Positions 10,001 through 62,435 of a stretch of DNA of 64,000 bases are shown one piece after another. The stretch covers positions 8,060,001 to 8,124,000 of the forward strand of contig NC_060017.1 in the NCBI RefSeq assembly GCF_021134715.1. Reading direction: 5' to 3'. This DNA is from Daphnia pulex. Taxonomy: Eukaryota; Arthropoda; Branchiopoda; Diplostraca; Daphniidae. Below the pieces are notes generated by a model. That model was not told the origin of the DNA and searched no databases. It saw only the letters and a list, made by a program, of their open reading frames with translations. The position numbers were made by a program, and so were the translations under genes. Every line of letters begins with the position of its first letter. Position 1 is the stretch's first letter.

Positions 10001-10955
10001 CCGGGACCCGCCTGAAAAACAATTTCTCTGCCTCCGGTTCCACAAGCGTCTAGATTTACGAAGGCCCCGATTTGTTTTGCCCACATGTGTTGCGTGATGA
10101 AGCCATGCGCACCCTAAAAAACAGAATTGAAAGAATTATAACACGGATCTTACCCTCGAATTATAAGATGCAATCCTATACCAGCATGCCCTTTTCTTCT
10201 GCACCATTAAAAAGAAAGATCACTGGATGTTTGGTGGGTTCTTTTCCACGAGAGAGCACCTCCAGTACTTCAAGAGCCACTGCAACACTGACACCATTGT
10301 CACTCGCACCTACAAAACATAGGCATTAAATAATTTTACAAAAAACAGAGATATTTTAACAGGATTTAGAAAATCTATAACCTGGGCTTCCACGAACACT
10401 GTCAAAATGAGCATTGATTAACAATGCTTCTTCTGCATTCACATCTGTTGAGTTTTTATCTTCAATTTTGACAATGACATTTGCGAGTGAATGATAAATT
10501 GTGTTGTGATCCAACCCATGAGCAACTGGAGTCATGACACCAGAAGGTTTTTGAAGATCCATGGTGATTTTGTGAGCAGGATGGGCAAATTGTTTTATGA
10601 ACCCAATTTCTCTCATAAGCAAATCAACAGCTCTGATTTCATTCTCATAGCTGCCAGCCACTCGGGGACCGATGCTTGTTAATCTCTCTAGGTGCTTATA
10701 AGCACGCTCTCCAACGAAAGCTCCAGGGTGAGAACTGGAATCTTTCAGCAAGATTGGATTTGGTAGTCGATGGTCCGATAACATTGAAATTCCCATGAGA
10801 ATTATAAAGCCGAAAGCTAAACTAATTAAAGAGGGAAGTAAAGGGAATTTCCAAGACTGGCTGTAACCGTTTTTATCCGTCATTCCAACGGCCGAGCCAA
10901 ATGGAGTCAAATCACTAGCGAGTTTCCCTCGTTTTCTTATATTGGCCTCCTGCAT
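7091..10955 (-). CDS. ERMP1: Endoplasmic reticulum metallopeptidase 1 (M28 family)
   Basis: Complete 13-exon gene, 912 aa in my model, against about 904 aa in human. Minus-strand exons: 10955-10382, 10309-10182, 10113-9982, 9908-9788, 9708-9415, 9352-8927, 8823-8747, 8653-8546, 8437-8282, 8196-7988, 7915-7752, 7658-7480, 7261-7091; every junction keeps frame. A membrane anchor near residues 45-60 precedes a lumenal M28 zinc-peptidase domain whose ligand motifs are visible: [25 protein letters not shown] and YHTKYD. A multi-span membrane region (exons 5-9) follows, then a C-terminal lumenal domain ending [13 protein letters not shown], as in vertebrate ERMP1. The family acts in the ER membrane and is linked to follicle organisation (rat Felix-ina). 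The start ATG opens a short basic cytosolic tail. The exon 10/11 junction has an A-rich acceptor and is the weakest call. Confidence 0.95.
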
Positions 10956-11232: not shown

Positions 11233-11238
11233 TAAAAC

Positions 11239-11800
11239 TATGGGGTGCGGAATGAACACTTTTTCCAAAAAAAATGTTCAATAATCGATTACCATATTTG
11301 ATGTGAAAACAAATTGATAATCGATTTGAATATTGAAATCAAGTTGAAAATATATTCAAAAATTGAAAATCTTTTGAAAACGATTTCATAAATTGAAAAT
11401 GATTTTGAAAAATGAAAATGATTTCGAAAAACTAAAATGAATTTGAAAAACTAAAATGATTTCGAAAAATGAAAACGAATTTGAAAAATGAAAATGAACT
11501 TGAAAAATGAAAATGAACTTGAATATCCATACAATTTCGGGAGTGCGATATGACACCACCCTACTCTATCCCCAGCTCTCTCCGGATGCTATAGCCACCC
11601 CGAGACAACCGACTAGCCATTGATGGCTATGTCGCTGATTCCAGCCAGCAAGGCCGTCAGCGATACTGTCAGCCCTTGCCGGGCGGTGCTGGCCACCGCT
11701 GCCGCCACTACGGCCGCCGCTGAAGTCTCTCTCGACCGCAGGCCGAGTATTCTACACAAAAATAGATTACACGATCCAACGTGAAAAGTTTCATGTTCCT
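11239..11800 (+). repeat. Left inverted-repeat arm, foldback element 1
   Basis: The arm has three parts: a terminus of about 100 bp containing ATCGATTACCATATTTGA; a tandem array of degenerate GAAAAATGAAAATGATTTC-like units to about 11525; and a unique segment to 11800. Read on the minus strand, the unique segment carries an open frame that ends at 11613 with a hydrophobic, Ala/Leu-rich C-terminus (...LTALLAGISDIAING). The right arm carries the same peptide in inverse orientation. Confidence 0.9.
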
Positions 11801-12438
11801 GCAGTAAATGACACACAGCCTACCCAGCAACGATGAAGACGGAACGGCCGAATGGGTGGCTTTCACCTGAGAAAAGTTCCAGTCACGCCTCGGTATGACG
11901 TTCTCGCGAAGTTCTCGTCATTCCACTAACTGCCAACTGCCCGGAAAGAAGTGTTCTGGTACGTTTCGCTGGATAGGCCTATGCGTCCTGTACTGCTGCG
12001 ATACTCTGCCGTTCAATCCGACGAGAAGAAGAAGGCGGACACGCCGTCTTGCTGACGTGGATCCTCATGTTGGTGCTGGCCCTGCTGGAAATTATCCGCT
12101 ATCTAAGCGGATTGGGGAGCTGGACTTCTCTATTGTCTCTACGTCTTTGCCATGTGGTCCACTTGCGCCGGAAGTGTTACCTACCCGATACTCTACGGCA
12201 TTTATATACAATTGGGCCATTTCCAAGGAAGAGCTCATTGGAAGGATGGCTCTGTCTCAGCTGCAGCGACGGATTGAACACCAAAAATTGGCGCAACGTC
12301 TATCTTTTCTACCATCATGGAGGCAGCGGACATGGCGGTGGAGGCCAAAGAAGAGGATCCAAATGGTCATGTTGCTCATGTCCGTTTCAACAGAAAAGCT
12401 TTTTTTTCATGGCCGGCCTCAAATAAAAGTAGTCGTAT
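11801..12438 (+). pseudogene. Broken ORF in spacer of foldback element 1
   Basis: The plus strand has an open frame from 11895 to 12440 with coding-like composition in its middle (for example IGELDFSIVSTSLPCG and YNWAISKEELIGRMAL). Near 12300 the plausible coding signal moves to another frame that starts STIMEAADMAVEAKEEDP and runs on to about 12449. This looks like a single frameshift or a missed intron. I do not recognise the protein. It may be a captured host gene piece or a relic of an element-encoded protein. Confidence 0.4.
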
Positions 12439-13004
12439 AGGAACATGAAACTTTTCACGTTGGATCGTGTAATCTATTTTTGTGTAGGGTAATACTCGGC
12501 CTGCGGTCGAGAGAGACTTTTAGCGGCGGCCGTTGTGGCGGCAGCGGTGGCCAGCACCGCCCGGCAAGGGCTGACAGTATCGCTGACGGCCTTGCTGGCT
12601 GGAATCAGCGACATAGCCATCAATGGCTAGTCGGTTGTCTCGGGGTGGCTATAGCATCCGGAGAGAGCTGGGGATAGAGTAGGGTGGTGTCATATCGCAC
12701 TCCCGAAATTGTATGGATATTCAAGTTCATTTTCATTTTTCAAGTTCATTTTCATTTTTCAAATTCGTTTTCATTTTTCGAAATCATTTTAGTTTTTCAA
12801 ATTCATTTTAGTTTTTCGAAATCATTTTCATTTTTCAAAATCATTTTCAATTTATGAAATCAATTTCAAAACATTTTCAATTTTTGAATTTATTTTCAAC
12901 TTGGTTTCAATATTCGAATCGATTATCAATTTGTTTTCAGATCAAATATGGTAATCGATTTTTGAACATTTTTTTTGGAAAAAGTGTTCAATCCGCACCC
13001 CATA
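12439..13004 (-). repeat. Right inverted-repeat arm, foldback element 1
   Basis: Reverse complement of the left arm with few differences. In the plus frame it repeats the Ala/Leu-rich C-terminal peptide ending at 12630 (...LTALLAGISDIAING, stop). It has TTTAGCGG where the left arm has TTCAGCGG after GAGAGAC, plus a length change that breaks the upstream reading frame, so only the left copy keeps the longer frame open. Confidence 0.88.
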
Positions 13005-13468
13005 TAAAACCAAATTGTCATCAAATTTGTGTGAAAGTTTTGTGTGAAAATGGATAAATTTATTAAAATTTTTGCATTGTAAAAATAACTGGTTATTAAA
13101 ATGTCATCATACATGAATGTATCAAATTATGTTAATATTGGAAGAACAAGTAAATACTATGGGGTGCGAATTGAACACTAAAATGATTTTGAACAATTTA
13201 AATGAATTTGAAAAATGAAAATGAATTTAAAAATCTATACATTTTCATATGTATATGTGTAATATGAAATCAATTCAATTATCATGTTCGGTACTATGAA
13301 GATTAAAGTAGTTGAATGAAAAATTACGTGAAATTATTGATTTTTTCAGCTGATACTCTGATAGCGACGGTGGCGCCGTCCCAACAATAGCGCCACACGA
13401 GAAAAACCACCATAAAACGCCGTTTACTTGAAACAACGTAATAGTTAGATGTTTTATTCTCGTCCAAA

Positions 13469-13645
13469 ATGGACGGTTTAAAAGACATTCAAGAATTGCT
13501 GTCACAACCTATAATAAGGACCATCGCCGATGCAGCCATGCAATTCTTTCAAGGAATCGCGAACCAAAACCCACAGCAGACTCAAAATGAGAATCCTGGC
13601 ATGAGTCCCTCCACCCAGAACTTCTTTGGAAATTTCACAGTTTGA
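13469..13645 (+). CDS. 58-aa ORF in left arm of foldback element 2
   Basis: An ATG-initiated frame of 58 codons begins MDGLKDIQELLSQP and ends NFFGNFTV before TGA. The composition is hydrophilic and Gln/Asn-rich, and I recognise no family. The right arm carries the same ORF inverted at 14050-14226. Between the two copies I noted two synonymous changes (ATC/ATT and GCG/GCC) and one Phe/Leu change. Expression is unproven; it may be the first exon of a captured gene. Confidence 0.4.
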   Translation: MDGLKDIQELLSQPIIRTIADAAMQFFQGIANQNPQQTQNENPGMSPSTQNFFGNFTV

Positions 13646-13716
13646 TTCCCCAAGGGAGGCCACTGGATTTCTGTTACCGGACATGGATCGCAAAGAATAT
13701 CCAAGACGATAACCAG

Positions 13717-13978
13717 TTTTAGATACGCACGAAATGGAATGGTAAGTTATACATGGTTGTAAAAATAATAACAGAATTTAAATTTTTATTTATATCAAGC
13801 GCATCTAATGTAAATGAGGATTATGGAGCCGAGACCAAATTGGTGAAAAAGACCCGATACGAAGACGAGAGTGAAAAGTACGACATGCCTAACACCAGAT
13901 CGAAAAGTGTCACCCGTGGATCTTGTGCTGGCAATTCGTGTACAACGTCATCGGATATATCTCCTATTGCTGGGCCGT
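13717..13978 (+). other. Spacer of foldback element 2, coding-like
   Basis: The plus strand is open across most of the spacer and into the right arm (13753-14193). The spacer part reads as a charged Ser/Thr-rich peptide with the segments NEDYGAETKLVKKTRYEDE and SDISPIAGPSGYRLGYS. I see no known domain. After entering the right arm this frame is antisense to the 58-aa ORF, so that part is probably a shadow. Confidence 0.3.
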
Positions 13979-14049
13979 CTGGTTATCGTCTTGGATATTC
14001 TTTGCGATCCATGTCTGGTAACAGAAATCCAGTGGCCTCCCTTGGGGAA

Positions 14050-14226
14050 TCAAACTGTGAAATTTCCAAAGAAGTTCTGGGTGGAGGGACTCATGCCAGG
14101 ATTCTCATTTTGAGTCTGCTGTGGGTTTTGGTTGGCAATTCCTTGAAGGAATTGCATGGCTGCATCGGCGATGGTCCTTATTATAGGTTGTGACAGCAAT
14201 TCTTGAATGTCTTTTAAACCGTCCAT
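14050..14226 (-). CDS. 58-aa ORF in right arm of foldback element 2
   Basis: Inverted copy of the ORF at 13469-13645, with the same length, start and stop. One residue differs (Phe to Leu in the QFFQ segment). Retention of an open frame in both arms could reflect recent arm duplication rather than selection. Confidence 0.4.
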   Translation of the reverse strand: MDGLKDIQELLSQPIIRTIADAAMQFLQGIANQNPQQTQNENPGMSPSTQNFFGNFTV

Positions 14227-14401
14227 TTTGGACGAGAATAAAACATCTAACTATTACGTAGTTTCAAGTAAACGGCGTTTAATGGTGGTTTTTCTCGTGT
14301 GGCGCTATTGTTGGGACGGCGCCACCGTCGCTATCAGCTGAAAAAAAACAATAATTTCACGTAATTTTTCATTCAACGACTTTAATCTAATGTATAGATT
14401 T

Positions 14402-14761
14402 TTTAATTCATTTTCATTTTTCAAATTCATTTAAATTGTTCAAAATCATTTTCAATTTTCAATTTATTTTTTCAAATTCATTTTCGTTTTATCAAAATCA
14501 TTTTCATGTTCTTTAATTATTTTCATTGTTCAAATTCAATACAAGTTTTCAAAATAATTTTCGTTTTCCAATGAAATTTTTTAAATACATTTTCATTTTT
14601 CAAATTCATTTCACTTGTTCAAAATCATTTTTCCATTTTCCATTTATTTTTTCAAATTCATTTTCGTTTTATCAAAATCATTTTCATTTTCTTTAATTAT
14701 TTTCATTGTTCAAATTCAATTTAAGTTTTCAAAATCATTTTCGTTTTCCAATGACATTTAT
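14402..14761. repeat. 180-bp tandem duplication inside right arm
   Basis: Segments 14402-14581 and 14582-14761 are near-identical AT-rich copies with an offset of exactly 180 bases (for example TTCAAATTCATTTTCGTTTT at 14471 and 14651). This duplication explains most of the extra length of the right arm of foldback element 2. Confidence 0.85.
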
Positions 14762-14945
14762 TAAAATCATTTTCACTTTTTGCAATCGTTTTCAAAAGAT
14801 TTTCAATTTTTGAATCTTTTTTCAACTTGATTTCAATATTCAAATCGATTATCAATTTGTTTTCAAATCAAATATGGTAATCGATTTTTGAACATTTTTT
14901 TTTGAAAAAGTGTTCATTTCGCACCCCATAGTTTCGCACCACATA

Positions 14946-17900
14946 AAATACCGCTCCCGAGAAAACGTTCAACACGGCGCTTATGGCAGAAAGCCAGAAA
15001 TCAAAAACTAAAAAAATGTGTTGTTCCTTAACCAAACAACCCTTCGACTCTCGCTTAGTCTTAATATATAGGGAATTTTATTTATTATAAGTCTATTAAT
15101 TTATTTTAACAAGGTGAGTACAGCCTATAAGTTATTTTCGTTATTCTGAACCCTCCTTTGACACATTGAGTTTGAGTAACATGTGTTAGTTAATAACACA
15201 CCCGCTTGGCGGGACTTTTTACTAGCCACTGCAACTTACGCCACCATCCCACCAACCGGCAATCGCTGCGAAGTTGCTTCCCATTTCCCAAAAATTGGAC
15301 AGTGTAGTACTGTAGTAGCCTAAGCCAGTGTTCTTTTCTTTGTTCTTTCTAAATTCTAATGTTCATTGTTCTCTAATCTCTTCGGTGGACGTGGTCGTGG
15401 ACCCTGGTCGTGGACGTGGACGTGGTTGAACCCTGATGGGCCGATGGCTAATCACTCCTCTCTGGGCTGATGTTCAGATTCTATGTGAAATATTGTAACG
15501 TGTGATAGCATGTTGTTGGTTAAGATAATTTAAACACACTAGCTTAAATAAAGAAAAGAACGAAACGCCCTTGTTATTTCTTCCGACCAACACATGTGAT
15601 AGGCGGACAAAGGCAGTTTTTCTTCCTGTCGCAGTTTCTGGATAAGGGGTCTCACACGGCGAAGTTCGTGATACCGTAGACCAAAGACATCGACATTGGG
15701 GTGCTCTTGCTTTTATTCCCCCAATCAAAATGAGAATTTCCTTTGTCTTTATTCTTGTCTCTCCATCGAAAAGGAATGGATTGGATAATAACTGCTTAGT
15801 GAATGTTATTCCAAACGTTACCCCTAAAGAAAATTATTATCCATTTACAGTGTTGTACTTTTCCTAGGAAGTGAAGATCTCCAATTTTTATCATCTACAT
15901 TTATCAGCTGCCATCGTCAGCCCAGATGGGTAAGTAAAGTGACAAATGTTTATTTCCAGAGAGAGATTAATAAGCTAAAATTATCATGCAGTCATCCTTT
16001 TTAAGTGACTTCAAAGTTGCTCCAACACATGGTGAGCCCACCATCAATGTGACTGATCTAAGGACTAAAACATACATATCCATATTGACTGGAAATCCTC
16101 ATACCCCTTGGTGCATTGCTTGCCATCTTCATTGAAATATCATCCTAGAAACAGGATGTCTTGGAGGCAAGTGTCTGAAGTTTGTGTTTGGGGCTTGTCT
16201 GTAAGGTATTTTTGTTTAACTGAAAATCACATATCCTTTTTTCATGGAAAACAGTTCTTTATCATTCTAGAGTGGGAGAAAAATGTGGTCAGCAGCAACC
16301 ACAGAAGTTAACACAGCGATTACTTCACTTCTTGTATTTCTGGGATTGGGATATTCCACATTTGCCAAATAACGTACAGCCAATAAGAAGCAGAAACTCT
16401 GGTATTTTCTTCTTTATCTATCACTCATCCAACCAATAGCCTCCCCTTACATGAATACGTCAGTTTTGACCCTTTGTGTAGTTTGTTACTTGCTAGAATA
16501 TCCAACACTTGTGGCATATCTGAATTTGTGTCTGGTGTAATAAGTGGCCCTTGAACATTATGAGGTCCTTCTCGAGTTCTGAATCCTATACTGTACCGAC
16601 TCGACTCGAGTGCAATTAACGCAACCTTCTAAGCCGTTATCAAGTGAGTGTCATGGTTTCTTTACAGCATCACTTGTCGTTCCAATGTTTTTTTTTTTTT
16701 CGCTTAAAATACCTAGTCATGATTTACGAAAGTACGAAAGACTACGAGTTCGTTATCAGGAACTACGCCTTCGCGATGCAGAACTGGAACTTAACGCCTC
16801 CGGCTGTAGTCAGTGGACCATCAGCAGCAGCAACAACAACTTCCTTTCATATTAATAGCGAAGTGCATCCACTTCTGTCGCACCAACTCCTGTTAGCGTT
16901 CCTTTCGCTCCCATAGTTGAACCGTCCATAAGTAACAGTAGCCGCTCCCACCCCCTTCTGTTGAATCAAATATATTGAACGCCTCTCCGTCCAGCGACAG
17001 GTTCTGGCGCACGCTGATGAACGCGGCCGAGAATCTGCCATCAGGTAAAAGATTCATTCTCCTCATTATTATGAAATTGCCGTGGATTTATAAGCTATTC
17101 TTGGTATTATTCAGTCTCTTCGTCCTTTGATAGAATGGCTAGAGTCTCATTTCCGACCTCAGCGTTAGCCAATGAGCATATTGACCCAGCTGAACGAAGC
17201 CAGCCGCTGTAGCCAACCGCATTGTACAAGTAACGATGGTTCCATGGCCGCTGGAGAAGTCAGATTGATGGCGGCGGTGCGTCTACGGTCAGTTTTAGTG
17301 ATAGCAGCGTATCATTCGTGTCGGGCCTTTATCATTAATTTGTCTTGTTTTGTTGTTATTCTTTTATTTATTAGCCCACTCTTTCAGATGTGACGGATAA
17401 ATCCACCGCAACGCCACAGTCGAGTCCTATTCGTTCACCTCGGGAAGTGGAACAGCAAATGAGGTAAACGAACTAAACATTAATCGCTTCATGAGGACAG
17501 CAATTTTTTGCCTGATAATTTATTTGACAGGCTTCTGTGAAGAGGGTATTTGTTTCAAGTGGTTAATGTGAAGCTGAATAATATGGGTTAACGGCGGCGG
17601 AAGCAGTAACACTCCCAGCTCTCAACAGCCATAGCGTTATCAACGACCAAAAACGAACTCTTTATTTTCTCTTTCTTATTGATGTTTTAATATGATGGAA
17701 TGAATTTGACATCACCATTAACAACGGCACCTTTCACAGTCATCAACAAACTTTGCGAAACATGCCAAAATTGTTAGGTTAGTGCAGCACCCTTACTTTT
17801 TATTTAAAAAATTGTAGCGCCACACCCATCTGCAGTTCTGCACTGAAGATTTGTAAACGGAAAGCGGAATTGCCTTGTGAAACTCAATATTTGTTCCTCT

Positions 17901-48897: not shown

Positions 48898-49010
48898 GTC
48901 AAACGAGGAAGTGTGTAAATTGTAAAGGAGCTCACCAATCTGGTGATCGCTTTTGCCCCATTCAAATGAAGGCCGTGGCGAGATACAGGGTGCGAATGGA
49001 AAGAAATTAA
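48898..49010 (+). CDS. LINE ORF1 C-terminus (partial, zinc knuckle)
   Basis: The frame contains RKCVNCKGAHQSGDRFCPIQ, a Cys-x2-Cys-x3-His-x6-Cys knuckle as found at the end of gag-like ORF1 proteins of R1/I/Jockey-type LINEs, and stops at TAA (49008-49010). Only about 37 codons remain. ORF1 proteins bind the element RNA. The stop overlaps the ORF2 start in TAATG. Confidence 0.8.
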
Positions 49011-52000
49011 TGTTGTTGACTCAGATATCCTCTACAAAATGCCGCGAATTTAAATCCCTCAAATGTCTCCAAATTAATCTTCGACACTCCAAAATTGCTT
49101 CTGCCTCCCTTGCTCAGGTCATTGTTGATTTAGATATCGATCTGGTCTTGATACAAGAACCCTATGCATTTTCTGCAACACATCCCGTTATCCCAAATGT
49201 CCCCACTGGTTACTCTCCCTTCCACGCTCTAACTAAAGATCATGCGTATGGCTCTGCCATAATCGCTCGTGATTCGATAGCAACTAAATTCAATCTGAAA
49301 AATAGGCACCTTGACAATCATGTGGCGTGTATTGAATTAAAAACTGTTGATGGCCCTCTTTGTTTCTGTTCGCTCTACTTGAGACCGTCTGAGCCAGCTT
49401 TTCTTTCATCGGCTACCTCAATCTTTGACTCCATTGGTTCCACTAACGTGGTATACGGAGTTGACTCAAATGCGCGAAACCCTGTATGGAACAGTATTAC
49501 AACTGATGTCAGAGGCGCTGAGCTTGAAACCTTGCTGCACTTTAAAAAACTAAACATCGCTAATGTGGCCAGAGAAAATCTTGTTTTTGTACCTAACGGT
49601 ACGTCATTTGTGGATCTCACTCTGTATGGTGATCGTGTAGATATACAGTCTTGGTCTTTCTTGTCCATCCCATCCTTGTCAGACCATCCTTACATCTTGT
49701 TTGAAGTGAAATTGGTGAAACCAGCTCCACCTAGAGCTAAATGTTCAATTCCCCCTCTTCCGAAACTGTGCTCGATTAATCAGGAGCTTTTCAATGAGTT
49801 GCTTTTGAAAGAATCGAAGCAGTGGAAAGATCCACCTTCCCTTCCATCTATCTCTGAAATTGAAGAATTAGTTGATAAAATCTCCTTGTCTATCGCAAAG
49901 TGTGCTAAGCTTTCTAAAATTCCTCGTGTTGCCCCAATCGTTTCATGTAATATGCCATGGTGGTCGGACGAGCTGCGCCTTTTGCGCAACTCAGCCAGGC
50001 ATAGATACAGATTACTTTCCAGATCCCATACCAATGAAAATAGTAATAATTACAAAAAAGCACGCTCCATTTATCAAAAAGCACTTCGCTCTGCAAAGAA
50101 TAAGTCTTTTGCTAAATTTCGGACAGCAGCAACGACTACTGATACTTTTAAAGCTTTATCGGATTTTACTAACAAAAAGAAAACTATCTCTCTTCCTGAT
50201 ACGATAATCATTAATGGTATCCCCACCTCTGACCCATCCAAAATTATAAACGCTTGTGCCGATCATTTCTTTCCTTCTCCAATGCAATCCAGCTGCTACC
50301 ACAACGATATTGAAACTAACTGTAATGCCAAATTAGCTGAAGCCACGACTGACCCAATTCCTCCAATAACGAACTGGGAGCTAGATGCTGCTATCTGCTC
50401 CTTAAATACTAAGTCAGCAGCCGGGTTTGATGGATTAACGAATGCTATGGTCGTGCATTGCCTGCCAGTAATTAAATCTCACTTGATGATAATTTTGAAT
50501 GCATGCATTATGCTCAGTTTCTTCCCTGATAAATGGAAAATTTCTAAAGTCAATATAATCGGAAAACCAAACAAACAGAGCTACAGTGAGATTCAGAGTT
50601 TTAGGCCTATAAGTCTGGCCAGTTCTTTTTCTAAGATCCTGGAAAAAATCATTCTGGGTCGTCTTCAATGGCTGGCAAGATCTCAAGATTGGCTAAGCCC
50701 TGACCAGCATGGCTTCCGAAGCGGCAAATCCACTGAAACGGCCGCTCACTCTTTGGTGACCGGCATTGAAAATGGATTTTCCGCCAAGGAGGTCACAGCT
50801 TGTGCTTTCTTGGACATTAAAAGCGCCTTTGACTCTGCCTGGCATCCTGCTATAATGAGTGCTCTTATCAACAAATCATGTCCAATCTACCTTATTAAAA
50901 TCATTCATGATTTCTTGACTGGCAGGAGAGCGATTCTTACGACGCATGGTACTTCTATCACCATACCGGTAAATCTGGGCTGCCCTCAGGGAGGTGTTTT
51001 GTCTCCGTTCCTTTGGATTGTGCTTATTGATGATATTCTTCGTTTATCTTTTCCATTTCCTTATAAGATCGGTGCTTTCGCCGACGACTTAACGACATCC
51101 TCTACTCACCTTTCACCTACTCAGGCAGTGTCTAATCTGCAGATTGTGTGTGATACAGTCAATCAAAAATTACGTGATATCAAACTTAACCTAAATGCAC
51201 AAAAAACAGTTTTCATGATCTTTTCCAAACGACGTACTAAATTACCTAAACTCACACTGACTGTAAACGGCAACCAAATCCATCCCTCTGAGTCTGCAAC
51301 CCTCCTTGGACTTGTCTTAGACCCTCAATTAAAATGGACTAGTCATATCAAGGCCAAATGCGCGTCAGCAAAGAGAGCTCTTTTTGCTGTAAATAATTGT
51401 ATTAGAAACTCATGGGGCTCCGACCACAACAAATTGCGCTTCTTATACTCTTCTGCTGTCGAACCCATTTTAACATACGGCTGTGCGATTTGGGTCTCAG
51501 CTCTTAATCGTAAATCTATAGTCAAACAGTTGAGGTCATTTCAAAGGACAGTGGGGTTGCTGTTAACAAGATCTTTTAAAACTGCGTCCACTGAGTCGAT
51601 AATTTTACTAGCTAATATTACGCCAATTGATCACGTCATAATCCGCATCGCTGCATGTCGTTTTATGTCAAACAGAGATGATCCTTTTACTCCTTCCTCT
51701 TTTAAATTCCTGAATACTTCAATACCTGATATAGTCACCAAAGAGAAATCTGAAAAATCCGAATCTCCCTTTTCCGGGTCTCTCCCACCATGGAAATTTT
51801 GTTTTAATATTTTACTGCTCCCAAAACACATAGTTGTCCCACTGCTGCCATCAGATAATTCAGTAAACGTCTACTCTGTAAGCACTCATTCACCAGTCCA
51901 AACAGTCACAGGAATAGTAGTCACTAATCACTCCGGTGTAATCTCCTCGCACAGCTTCTCTTTTAAATCCAACAAATCAAAACTAACTAACTCCAGGTTA

Positions 52001-52717
52001 GCATTCAAAAAAGTGCTTGGTATCGCCCTCTCACTATCACACTGTCATTCAAAAATTGATATTTTCGTCCAGTCTAGTAGTGATTACTCCTTTGCTAGAC
52101 CATCTAGCAGGCATGATTCCCTTGATGCTGAAAATTTTACTATTCTGACTTCTATTCGAGGCCGAATAAATCTTTATTTCGGCCTCCATAGCGCGAACGC
52201 TGGGTATGAAGCTGCTAGAGAGGTGTCCACCAGGAACTCTCCTCTAGTGATGGTGAACTTTCCACCATCGAAAATTGAAAACAAAAGGGAAATTGAATGC
52301 TTACTTATCTCTGTATGGGAATCTGAATGGAGTAGTACTCAAAAAGGCGAAACAACTCGGAATTTTTTTCCTAACGTTAAAGCCGCTGCTATCCTTAAGA
52401 CTAAAAAATCGAACAATAAGATCGCTCAAATTCTGACAGGCCACTGCTTACTAAATGCCCACCAGCACAGATTTGGATTTGTTAAGGATCCTTCTTGCAG
52501 TTGTGGTGATCCTATTGAGTCAATACCCCATTTCCTTTTCTTCTGCCCAACCTATAACATCATTAGAGGAGAGTTTAAAGACATCTCGCTGGAGGCGTGT
52601 AATACCTGGCCACCTGAGCTGTCTATGATACCACAATCCGAGGTAATGTGGAGAGCCATGAAAAATTTCATATTTAAATCCAAACGTTTAGACCCAAATG
52701 TCCAATTAAGAAAGTAA
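49010..52717 (+). CDS. LINE ORF2: endonuclease-reverse transcriptase
   Basis: Uninterrupted 1235-aa protein from the ATG at 49010. The frame is open further upstream but has no other ATG. Residues about 15-240 are the apurinic-type endonuclease (LQINLRHSKIAS, LIQEPY, GVDSNARNPVW, LSDHP). A reverse transcriptase spans about residues 450-780 with LKNFRPISL-type, QHGFRSGKSTE, LDIKSAFDSAWH, GCPQGGVLSP and the catalytic FADD near residue 690. A region after about residue 950 may be a degenerate RNase H fold. The C-terminus has a Cys/His cluster (CSCGDPIESIPHFLFFC). The protein nicks target DNA and copies the element RNA in place. The intact frame contrasts with the missing ORF1. Confidence 0.93.
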   Translation: MLLTQISSTKCREFKSLKCLQINLRHSKIASASLAQVIVDLDIDLVLIQEPYAFSATHPVIPNVPTGYSPFHALTKDHAYGSAIIARDSIATKFNLKNRHLDNHVACIELKTVDGPLCFCSLYLRPSEPAFLSSATSIFDSIGSTNVVYGVDSNARNPVWNSITTDVRGAELETLLHFKKLNIANVARENLVFVPNGTSFVDLTLYGDRVDIQSWSFLSIPSLSDHPYILFEVKLVKPAPPRAKCSIPPLPKLCSINQELFNELLLKESKQWKDPPSLPSISEIEELVDKISLSIAKCAKLSKIPRVAPIVSCNMPWWSDELRLLRNSARHRYRLLSRSHTNENSNNYKKARSIYQKALRSAKNKSFAKFRTAATTTDTFKALSDFTNKKKTISLPDTIIINGIPTSDPSKIINACADHFFPSPMQSSCYHNDIETNCNAKLAEATTDPIPPITNWELDAAICSLNTKSAAGFDGLTNAMVVHCLPVIKSHLMIILNACIMLSFFPDKWKISKVNIIGKPNKQSYSEIQSFRPISLASSFSKILEKIILGRLQWLARSQDWLSPDQHGFRSGKSTETAAHSLVTGIENGFSAKEVTACAFLDIKSAFDSAWHPAIMSALINKSCPIYLIKIIHDFLTGRRAILTTHGTSITIPVNLGCPQGGVLSPFLWIVLIDDILRLSFPFPYKIGAFADDLTTSSTHLSPTQAVSNLQIVCDTVNQKLRDIKLNLNAQKTVFMIFSKRRTKLPKLTLTVNGNQIHPSESATLLGLVLDPQLKWTSHIKAKCASAKRALFAVNNCIRNSWGSDHNKLRFLYSSAVEPILTYGCAIWVSALNRKSIVKQLRSFQRTVGLLLTRSFKTASTESIILLANITPIDHVIIRIAACRFMSNRDDPFTPSSFKFLNTSIPDIVTKEKSEKSESPFSGSLPPWKFCFNILLLPKHIVVPLLPSDNSVNVYSVSTHSPVQTVTGIVVTNHSGVISSHSFSFKSNKSKLTNSRLAFKKVLGIALSLSHCHSKIDIFVQSSSDYSFARPSSRHDSLDAENFTILTSIRGRINLYFGLHSANAGYEAAREVSTRNSPLVMVNFPPSKIENKREIECLLISVWESEWSSTQKGETTRNFFPNVKAAAILKTKKSNNKIAQILTGHCLLNAHQHRFGFVKDPSCSCGDPIESIPHFLFFCPTYNIIRGEFKDISLEACNTWPPELSMIPQSEVMWRAMKNFIFKSKRLDPNVQLRK

Positions 52718-60426: not shown

Positions 60427-62435
60427 TTATTGTTCCAAAACGAGAGATTTGGTTAATCGATCACATATTTGGGAACCTTTTTCTTTTCTGGCTTCGGTTT
60501 TTGCAATTCTTGATCCAAACTGAATGGCTCGTTTCGGTTCAATGGCCGTTTTATTCAATCCCATCTGAAAGGCAAGTGCTCTAAGGATGATTTTATCGCC
60601 CAAGCCGATCGGCAACCTTAGATCGACCTTAGTCCAGATCGGCAACTGAGCTAGATATTCAACAACCATTTCGTCGAGGTACGGCAATCTTGGAGCTCTG
60701 CCATGATCGGCTAATATACGGTTGTCGCGACCGAGATTTCGCTCTGATATTCGGTTCATTTCCATTTCGATCTCGGAGACAAGCAACGGCCAGCCCCCAT
60801 TGGCGAATTTTTGGCGATGTCGAGCGTAACCAGCCATTTGTTCGTCCGCTCCTGCACCCATCAAAACAACCTTAAAAACCAATGACGTCAATCGAAAGAA
60901 ATAAATATGAATGAACAACAACAACCGAATTTAAATTGAATGCAAGTGTCGCATTACCCTGGCCGGAGATACGTATTCCTCATTGTTCGAGATCAAAACA
61001 CCTCGCCCACGAGTGGCAAACCATTGGGCACAACCGATGCTGTCGTCGAGGACGGTTGAGGCTGGATGAATGAGCGTCGCGATCCTCGACTTCCTCATTT
61101 CTAGTAACTCTTCCAATTCCACGTTGATCTAATAATCGTGGGAGTAAAGGGACGTATTAAATTAAAACAAATCAGCAATTACTTTTTGATAATAATTCAA
61201 AAATACTTCGCAAAAATTCCATTTCCGAGAGGGGTTGAGCTTTTGTAATTCTTCTAACGCTTGGAGACCAGTCAAACGGTCAGGGACATCAAATTTGTTA
61301 GCGGTGGGATTATTCTTGGTGCGTAATGGAAATGCTACATTCAGTAGATCAATGGATTCGTTTTCTGGCCAGACACGATCTGTAAGTGCAGCTAGAACAC
61401 TCGAGTCCAATCCACCGGAGAATAGAATGGCCACTTTTGAATGGGTGCACTTGATTTGATTTCCATTGAGATGCAGTAGCACGCACGCCTTACAAAGCAT
61501 TGGCTGGCAATGAACTCGAGATTTGATTGAATCCAACAGAGCGGCTTTCAATCCTTCTACTTCCTTTTGCCAAATGTTCAAGTAATCACTAATAATTTGA
61601 TCAGAAGATTTGCTGTCCAACAAATCACTGAAATCAGGAATCCAACCAAAAAATTCGTGGTCAGAGACAGGCTTCTTGTTTATCTCATATGGATTTCGCG
61701 AGTAGACCTTTTTAACTGAAATGGTGTTTTCAAAGCTGATTTGGTACAAACTGGAAGCAGGTATTTCACATAATGTGGAGCATTGTGATGAGGATGAAAT
61801 TATCAATTGAGGACAGGAGAGTTCCCCATCCCCATTTAAGCAATTCCAGAGTAAACTATGTCTTCCAAACCTATTATAACAAGTTCTATGTAGTAATATA
61901 CCAACCATATTAGTATTTAAACTTTGAACAAACCTGTCTCTTCCAGTAATTATTCGATTGAGGCTTTTCTTGTAATAAATCAGCGACCAGGGTCCCTTTA
62001 TGATTTCCAAAGTGTTACATATTTCTTCCACTGTTTCAACATTCTCAAGTTTGTCTAAAAGAAATTTGGTGTCTGAATGTCCTTTTGGAATGTGTTCATC
62101 TCCAATTCGACTGTAAAAAACATCCCCATTCCATAGAAGGATATTGCCACTTGAGTCTACCAATGGTTGTGGAACAGGAAAATCACCTTGTAGCCATAAG
62201 GTATGGCCGGAAAATGTTGCTTTCCAAGATGTTGATAAGTCAATTTCAATTTCATGACTAGCATCTGGACCTCTTCGTTCCAGTACAACTTTATTTTCAT
62301 TCTGCAGAAAAAAACAGTCTAGTTAATGCAAATTTATTCGACAAAAATTAAGTATAGTTTAGGTTAAGCAACCAGTTGTTTAGTGCACTTGTGATCCTCC
62401 GACTTGGTTCTGACACATAATAGAATTCCACACAT
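60427..62435 (-). CDS. ASNSD1: Asparagine synthetase domain-containing protein 1
   Basis: Five exons: 62435-62373, 62301-61934, 61870-61183, 61128-60958, 60870-60427; 577 aa (human about 640). It opens with MCGILLCV, where Cys2 is the N-terminal nucleophile expected of a class II glutaminase domain, then the asparagine-synthetase domain with the ATP pyrophosphatase loop SGGLDSS near residue 294 and GAGADEQMAGY further on. The C-terminal PYLDEMVVEYL and LPIGLGDKIILR are typical of ASNSD1. The true biochemical reaction of ASNSD1 is not settled. Intron 2 (61871-61933) is 63 nt, a multiple of three and free of stops, so it reads through as coding. I excised it because RDRFGRHSLLW is then restored to family form. 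Confidence 0.93.

Follow-up and report, generated by a model that had tools for sequence, protein, structure and literature searches.

A 64,000-bp window of the Daphnia pulex genome (assembly GCF_021134715.1, contig NC_060017.1, forward-strand positions 8,060,001 to 8,124,000; here C1:8060001-8124000, with positions in the window counted from its first letter) contains two neighbouring foldback elements, A (11239-13004) and B (13158-14945). When we rechecked the coordinates, both elements lay where the initial annotation had placed them, 153 bp apart. The exact 6-bp flanks that it had reported, TAAAAC for A and AAATAC for B, were also recovered, and among all flank lengths k from 2 to 14 only k = 6 produced a match. 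One detail had to be corrected: a C had been dropped from the 3' terminus of A, which reads CGCACCCCATA. The parts of both elements are listed in Table 1.

Table 1. Features of elements A and B (window coordinates; C, contig; L, locus; C7 and C11 loci are described in the text)
Feature	Position	Strand	Basis
Left target duplication of A, TAAAAC	11233..11238	.	k = 6 alone matches the right flank
IS3EU-type left end of A: TATGGGGTGCGGAATGAACAC and AT-rich 19-bp tandem units	11239..11532	+	87% to C7 element end
Second-foldback-family end-like sequence, left copy	11533..11608	+	79-87% to L082, L083, L085, L086, L087
Inverted receptor-like cargo copy, inner left arm of A	11607..11795	-	76% to L072 1501-1704
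Displaced second piece of C11-locus homology, loop of A	11821..11893	+	84% to L072 1460-1395
Main receptor-like (G-protein-coupled receptor, GPCR) fragment, loop into right arm of A	12042..12636	+	77% to L072 2126-1501 (C11)
Second-foldback-family end-like sequence, right copy	12635..12710	-	79-87% to second-family ends
IS3EU-type right end of A, ...CGCACCCCATA	12711..13004	-	Sequence reading
Right target duplication of A, TAAAAC	13005..13010	.	Flank-length test
Left target duplication of B, AAATAC	13152..13157	.	Flank-length test
Short left IS3EU end of B, most of the right-side AT-rich array missing	13158..13243	+	13180-13243 pairs with 14389-14452 at 98%
Terminal-repeat open reading frame (ORF) MDGLKDIQELLSQPIIRTIADAAM..., left arm of B	13469..13642	+	Comparison with C7 terminal-repeat exon
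Inverted 96-bp copy of second-gene segment	13621..13716	-	99% to L010 2062-2157
Segment of the C7 weakly HECT-like second gene; GT-AG intron by eye	13717..14074	+	98.9% over 358 bp to L010 2419-2062
Long right arm of B, C7-terminal-repeat homologue; ORF start at 14131-14226	14092..14930	-	94% over 841 bp to L010
Tandemly duplicated 15-bp right end of B; outer copy CGCACCACATA adjoins the target duplication	14917..14945	-	
Right target duplication of B, AAATAC	14946..14951	.	Flank-length test

The source assembly comprises 133.2 Mb in 13 contigs (C1-C13); contig 13 produced a full-length COX1 match with nine internal TGA codons, as expected for a mitochondrial contig. We scanned the whole genome with a terminal pattern of 21 positions, allowing at most three mismatches, and used the reversed pattern as a control. 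The pattern had 35 matches (21 exact, 14 inexact) compared to 8 for the control. The exact ends form nine two-ended elements and three single ends (C1:457574, C3:4275660 and C4:7174569). The nine elements have TATGGGG..CCCCATA on both sides, with one exception, the outermost right end of B, which is CCACATA.

We then compared the flanks of each two-ended element for equality at every k from 2 to 14. An exact 6-bp direct repeat, and no other matching length, was present in eight of the nine elements (TAAAAC, AAATAC, AAATTC, ATTTTG, GAAATT, TCAACA, AAATAT, GAAAAC). We estimate from base composition that a 6-bp flank match has a chance of about 3e-4 per element; eight such matches are far beyond chance. 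The proposal of a single mobile family with common ends, 6-bp duplications and differing interiors is supported by the terminal scan and by the copies of the interiors found in the genome. The suggested check on genomic copies was, in its details, positive for these eight elements and negative for the ninth (C3:956847-958619, without a duplication at any k) and for the three unpartnered ends. The C3 element, which a partial extra end adjoins, is the one observation in favour of an origin without transposition, in which local rearrangement gave rise to static inverted duplications. Eight elements with different 6-bp duplications, spread over six contigs and for the most part with near-identical interiors, already refute such an origin.

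At C4:7174277-7174569 (L018 3277-3569) a lone A-type end, 98% identical over 293 bp, is joined to an unrelated interior. No second end was seen within the 6 kb examined, and this is perhaps another cargo or truncated copy. Loci L019, L020 and L021 were covered by BLAST and a short look only.

The initial annotation had left the superfamily unnamed and had advised a search for an autonomous copy encoding a transposase. A relative with a predicted transposase was found at C7:1935278-1946107. At 10,830 bp it is the largest copy, with the duplication GAAAAC and the same TATGG..CCATA ends. Over 1,825 bp its terminal repeats do not differ, which suggests that the element is young or that the repeats were recently homogenised. 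The predicted transposase model, which covers the core part of the gene and not the whole gene, stays open when spliced over three short predicted introns. It matches the integrase-core profile PF24764 (rva_4) at positions 1-186 of 194 with an E-value of 3.3e-65, and candidate catalytic D, D and E residues were located by eye in LWHVD, RSDHGTEN and HNQRVE. TA..TA ends and, as a rule, a 6-bp duplication characterise IS3EU elements (PMC10045372). The ends given for rust-fungal IS3EU elements in PMC12730594 are TAYGG..CCRTA, and PMC8594854 gives 0.05% as the share of IS3EU in a D. pulex assembly. The termini, the duplication length and the transposase of the related element all point to IS3EU as the superfamily of A and B.

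Polinton/Maverick-type elements also combine a 6-bp duplication with long terminal repeats and an integrase-like core. Polinton ends are AG..CT, however, and the ends observed here are TA..TA. The C7 transposase fits rva_4 far better than rve (E-values of 3e-65 and 8e-7, respectively), and no DNA polymerase or capsid match appeared in 9 of the 15 C7 frames of at least 90 aa and the 3 further pieces that were scanned. Membership of A and B among the Polintons is thus very improbable.

The arms of A are 486 nt long and 98% identical. In the genome search we found eight full-length copies of its interior with 92-100% identity. The seven two-ended copies occupy different sites; compared with one another along their full length they have 97.7-99.0% identity, and the two arms within a copy are 97.3-99.5% identical. 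A fits the variable cargo suggested earlier in that it carries homology to a receptor-like locus, with ends of another repeat family on either side. The main fragment is 77% identical over 595 bp to C11:3701475-3702100. An open frame at this C11 locus matches positions 202-260 of 260 of Pfam 7tm_1 (E-value 8.5e-4, 19.3 bits, cut-off 30.5), and the locus is likely, though not certain, to be a rhodopsin-type receptor gene. The longest frame of A (189 aa) had no Pfam match at E ≤ 1, and no intact receptor frame was seen in A. The genome-wide transposase search gave no match within A or B.

The ends of the second family directly abut the receptor-like homology at 11607 and 12636, inside the IS3EU ends of A. 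A foldback of this second family, rich in C/G runs, spans 1,063 bp at L085 134-1196 (C3:6954350-6955700). Its two pairs of arms, 179 and 250 nt long, are 100% complementary, and it has a duplication of exactly 9 bp, GAAATTTCG, in what was the only second-family copy tested. A 9-bp duplication is typical of MULE/Foldback elements. Three more loci, L082, L083 and L087 (on C5, C9 and C10), carry a second-family end together with homology to the C11 receptor-like locus. Because the terminal-pattern scan found no IS3EU end at these three sites, it is probable that the second family acquired the receptor-like fragment first and that the fragment passed from there into an IS3EU element.

The same two observations, the abutting ends in A and the second-family copies with receptor-like homology away from IS3EU ends, would also be produced by a passive nest, in which a second-family foldback inserted into an IS3EU element and the latter captured nothing. 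Two features of A speak against it: the inner unit has no direct 9-bp duplication around it, and its flanks are mutually inverted within the arms. Since these flanks are inverted copies, at least one inverted duplication came after. We consider a passive nest to have slightly less than an even chance.

One may also ask if A and B are themselves Mutator/Foldback (MULE) elements, like many known foldbacks with gene cargo. Their shape and cargo would suit this, as would the presence in this genome of the 9-bp foldback at L085, whose family has ends inside A. Still, A, B and six relatives duplicate exactly 6 bp, not 9 bp, and the transposase encoded by the C7 element is of the integrase-core type, so that we give the MULE assignment as little credit as the Polinton one. 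On termini and duplication length, both memberships were rejected.

Element B carries cargo in another sense, namely a part of the second gene of the C7 element. Its inner arms (13358-13716 and 13979-14337) are 359 nt long and 98% identical. In the comparison of the right arm with C7, the outer 60-bp blocks were 93-100% identical and two blocks over the coding part 83-90%. Among the best candidates of the genome search there was no second full copy of the B interior; pieces of it occur in C7 and in four C9 loci. The right arm and the second-gene segment match C7, and 96 bp of that segment reappear inverted at the left together with the terminal repeat. The right half of B can therefore be read as the product of a deletion that brought the second gene next to the opposite terminal repeat; the left half looks like an inverted copy from which much of the AT-rich array is missing. 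In appearance, A and B are each a one-sided inverted duplication.

It is highly probable that A and B are non-autonomous foldbacks of one IS3EU family, that a transposase acted on them in trans, that the foldbacks arose by inverted copying and that A was amplified as a unit. In such a scheme, A and B would have moved by cut and paste with the transposase of a C7-like element, each insertion duplicating 6 bp of the target, as is observed. The structure of both elements is that of a half element, a terminal repeat with the adjacent interior, whose inverted copy forms the opposite side; the copying probably took place by template switching during repair or replication. B would be a one-sided duplication of a C7-like element minus the transposase gene. 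In A, the interior would have gained a second-family (9-bp, MULE-like) end and the receptor-like fragment before it was amplified to eight copies.

Several observations count against this account. The two-ended C3 element lacks a duplication, and for three of the exact ends there is no exact partner. The 6-bp repeat of B is seen only with the outer variant end CGCACCACATA; the inner right-end copy bears the exact motif, yet no flank length matches from there. No 9-bp duplication accompanies the second-family end inside A. Donor and gene are both uncertain, since the cargo of A and the C11 locus share about 77% identity and the receptor match falls short of the cut-off. The ends of A are only 87% similar to those of C7, and the C7 element is thus no more than a candidate helper of A. 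The placement in IS3EU was made by termini, duplication and core match, and mobility was read from the sequence. With these points weighed, A and B are, as judged from their structure, assignable as cargo-carrying IS3EU foldbacks that were mobile in the past.

The second gene of the C7 element is convergent with the transposase gene. In comparison with the Pfam HECT profile (cut-off 23.9 bits), its C-terminal piece had an E-value of 9.6e-4 (19.3 bits) and the joined gene model an E-value of 0.0071 (16.5 bits). A PDB search with the C-terminal piece returned two HECT ligases with E-values of 0.26 and 0.8; with the joined model no HECT match was present at E ≤ 0.1, and with a second-gene profile none at E ≤ 10. 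The hhalign comparison with two host HECT frames produced an alignment around the cysteine with a probability of 0.5% and an E-value of 0.12. An assignment to HECT fell below every curated threshold (Pfam, PDB, NCBIfam, hhalign), and we kept the description weakly HECT-like.

When the Pfam HECT profile was run over the genome, the transposon copies were absent among the 61 best candidates listed, and therefore the test of proximity between second gene and transposase used matches to the C7 protein. These fall into 9 places (hand-merged from 11 rows), and the transposase matches of the genome search into 53 places (hand-merged from 85 rows). Five of the nine second-gene places are within 10 kb of an IS3EU transposase, one of the five being C7, the origin of the query protein. 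When places were put at random on these contigs 20,000 times, the mean was 0.11 and the maximum 3. The pairs at C7, C2 (9481182-9487093) and C8:4.86 Mb are convergent; those at C8:4.91 and C8:7.55 Mb are on the same strand.

Both terminal repeats of the C7 element contain a 145-nt exon model (element positions 705-849) that starts with MDGFKDIQELLSQP. In the predicted splice models, which are not transcripts, its donor joins in frame to acceptor 1818 on the transposase side, with the start of exon 2 falling within the final 8 nt of the repeat, and to acceptor 2176 on the second-gene side, where acceptor 2224 also stays open. Behind the exon model, the terminal repeat has a tandem array with units of about 148 bp (L009 1223-2202).

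A related sequence, MDGLKDIQELLSQP, is present in both arms of B. Over 32 codons, 13 of 16 and 14 of 18 differences between B and the C7 exon are at third positions; the nonsynonymous divergence (dN) is 0.07-0.08 and the synonymous divergence (dS) 0.96-1.2. The sequence just upstream is almost identical. This pattern indicates a mosaic origin together with constraint at the protein level. Four loci on one strand of C9 (3570273, 3611046, 4072785 and 4194420; L089-L092) have a further relative of the exon, MDGIKDIQDLLSQP..., with the start codon altered in one of them. Their changes relative to C7 and B are mostly at third positions (dS was mostly saturated and was not computed). Among themselves these loci have a dN of 0.04-0.08 and a dS of 0-0.03, with no silent excess. 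No transposase place lies within 10 kb of any of the four by the genome-search coordinates, and they may represent a host gene source or relics.

The Mu killer locus of maize is a partial inverted duplication of mudrA with two terminal repeats that silences MuDR, and a hairpin RNA is the proposed cause (PMC3440606). B is similar in having an inverted duplication of part of the gene of a parent element with a terminal repeat; the part duplicated in B, however, comes from the second gene and not from the transposase gene. B resembles Mu killer in layout because a C7-type upstream region, the exon and part of the second gene are placed in a hairpin, and we put forward the hypothesis that B could be a silencer of this type. 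A wider proposal has two parts that would both have to hold. First, the terminal repeats would serve as common promoter, first coding exon and intron 1 of two convergent genes, with homogenisation keeping the N-termini identical. Second, B would be a Mu-killer-like hairpin silencing the family. We regard this combination as unlikely, if clearly less so than the Polinton and MULE assignments.

Foldbacks such as FB of Drosophila, Tetris and Galileo have long inverted arms, and many of them carry tandem subterminal units. A and B share both traits with them and differ in superfamily and in duplication length, since these foldbacks belong to other superfamilies with other duplication lengths.

Among known systems, IS3EU/GingerRoot elements are similar in TATGG..CCATA ends, the 6-bp duplication and an integrase-core DDE transposase. 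A second gene in opposite orientation is a further likeness; fungal IS3EU elements with TET/JBP genes have an alpha-kinase gene (PMC12730594). The D. pulex elements differ in having a coding-exon model within terminal repeats that are identical and very long, in the weakly HECT-like second gene and in the foldback derivatives with cargo. IS3EU together with HECT was not found in the literature searched, a weak negative as Repbase Reports and most subscription papers are outside that search. Both IS3EU and foldback occur in PMC8268682, but the words are confined there to one reference and a table of satellites. As for a first or shared exon in terminal repeats, titles and the opening lines of abstracts contained nothing on point.

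The Pack-TIR elements of animals (TIR, terminal inverted repeat), as presented in PMC8277862, have a host-derived fragment between transposon ends, as A would if its cargo came from a host gene, and are, like A, amplified in multiple copies as a unit. The cargo of A differs in being combined with second-family ends and folded back. The word IS3EU is absent from the main text of PMC8277862. With regard to homology to a host gene elsewhere, by which Pack-TIRs are recognised, the C11 match of A is to a candidate gene. Replication fork switching was proposed for multicopy Pack-TIRs in PMC8277862, and template switching is the likely route to the inverted duplications of A and B. Turmoil-1 of C. 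elegans also has protein-coding sequence within inverted terminal repeats; its sequences come from known host genes (PMC2572040), unlike the source here, which is only a candidate.

Several other features of the window were recorded. Element A starts upstream of an M28-peptidase-like frame on the minus strand (10359-10955; E-value 0.0023, below the cut-off), at a distance of 283 bp from the first in-frame ATG of that frame. A match to the mir-31 microRNA precursor (55.6 bits) lies at 2595-2677. The open frame at 48947-52717 (1256 aa) has endonuclease and reverse transcriptase domains and is probably ORF2 of a non-LTR retrotransposon (LTR, long terminal repeat). The frame at 61165-62322 has weak, below-cut-off matches to glutamine amidotransferase and asparagine synthase.

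IS3EU is already known as a kind of element and has been little studied; the nested receptor-like fragment, the one-sided inverted duplications and the terminal-repeat exon are new. If the exon is truly common to the two genes, the long terminal repeats would have a function in coding, and there would be a reason why they remain identical. Gene capture in an animal would take an unusual form if a receptor-like fragment was passed between elements of two superfamilies. A single genome contains an element of full length in which the transposase core model is open, a derivative formed by one-sided inverted duplication, and a cargo element in amplified copies. A route from autonomous transposon through foldback to gene carrier may hence be read from the sequence.

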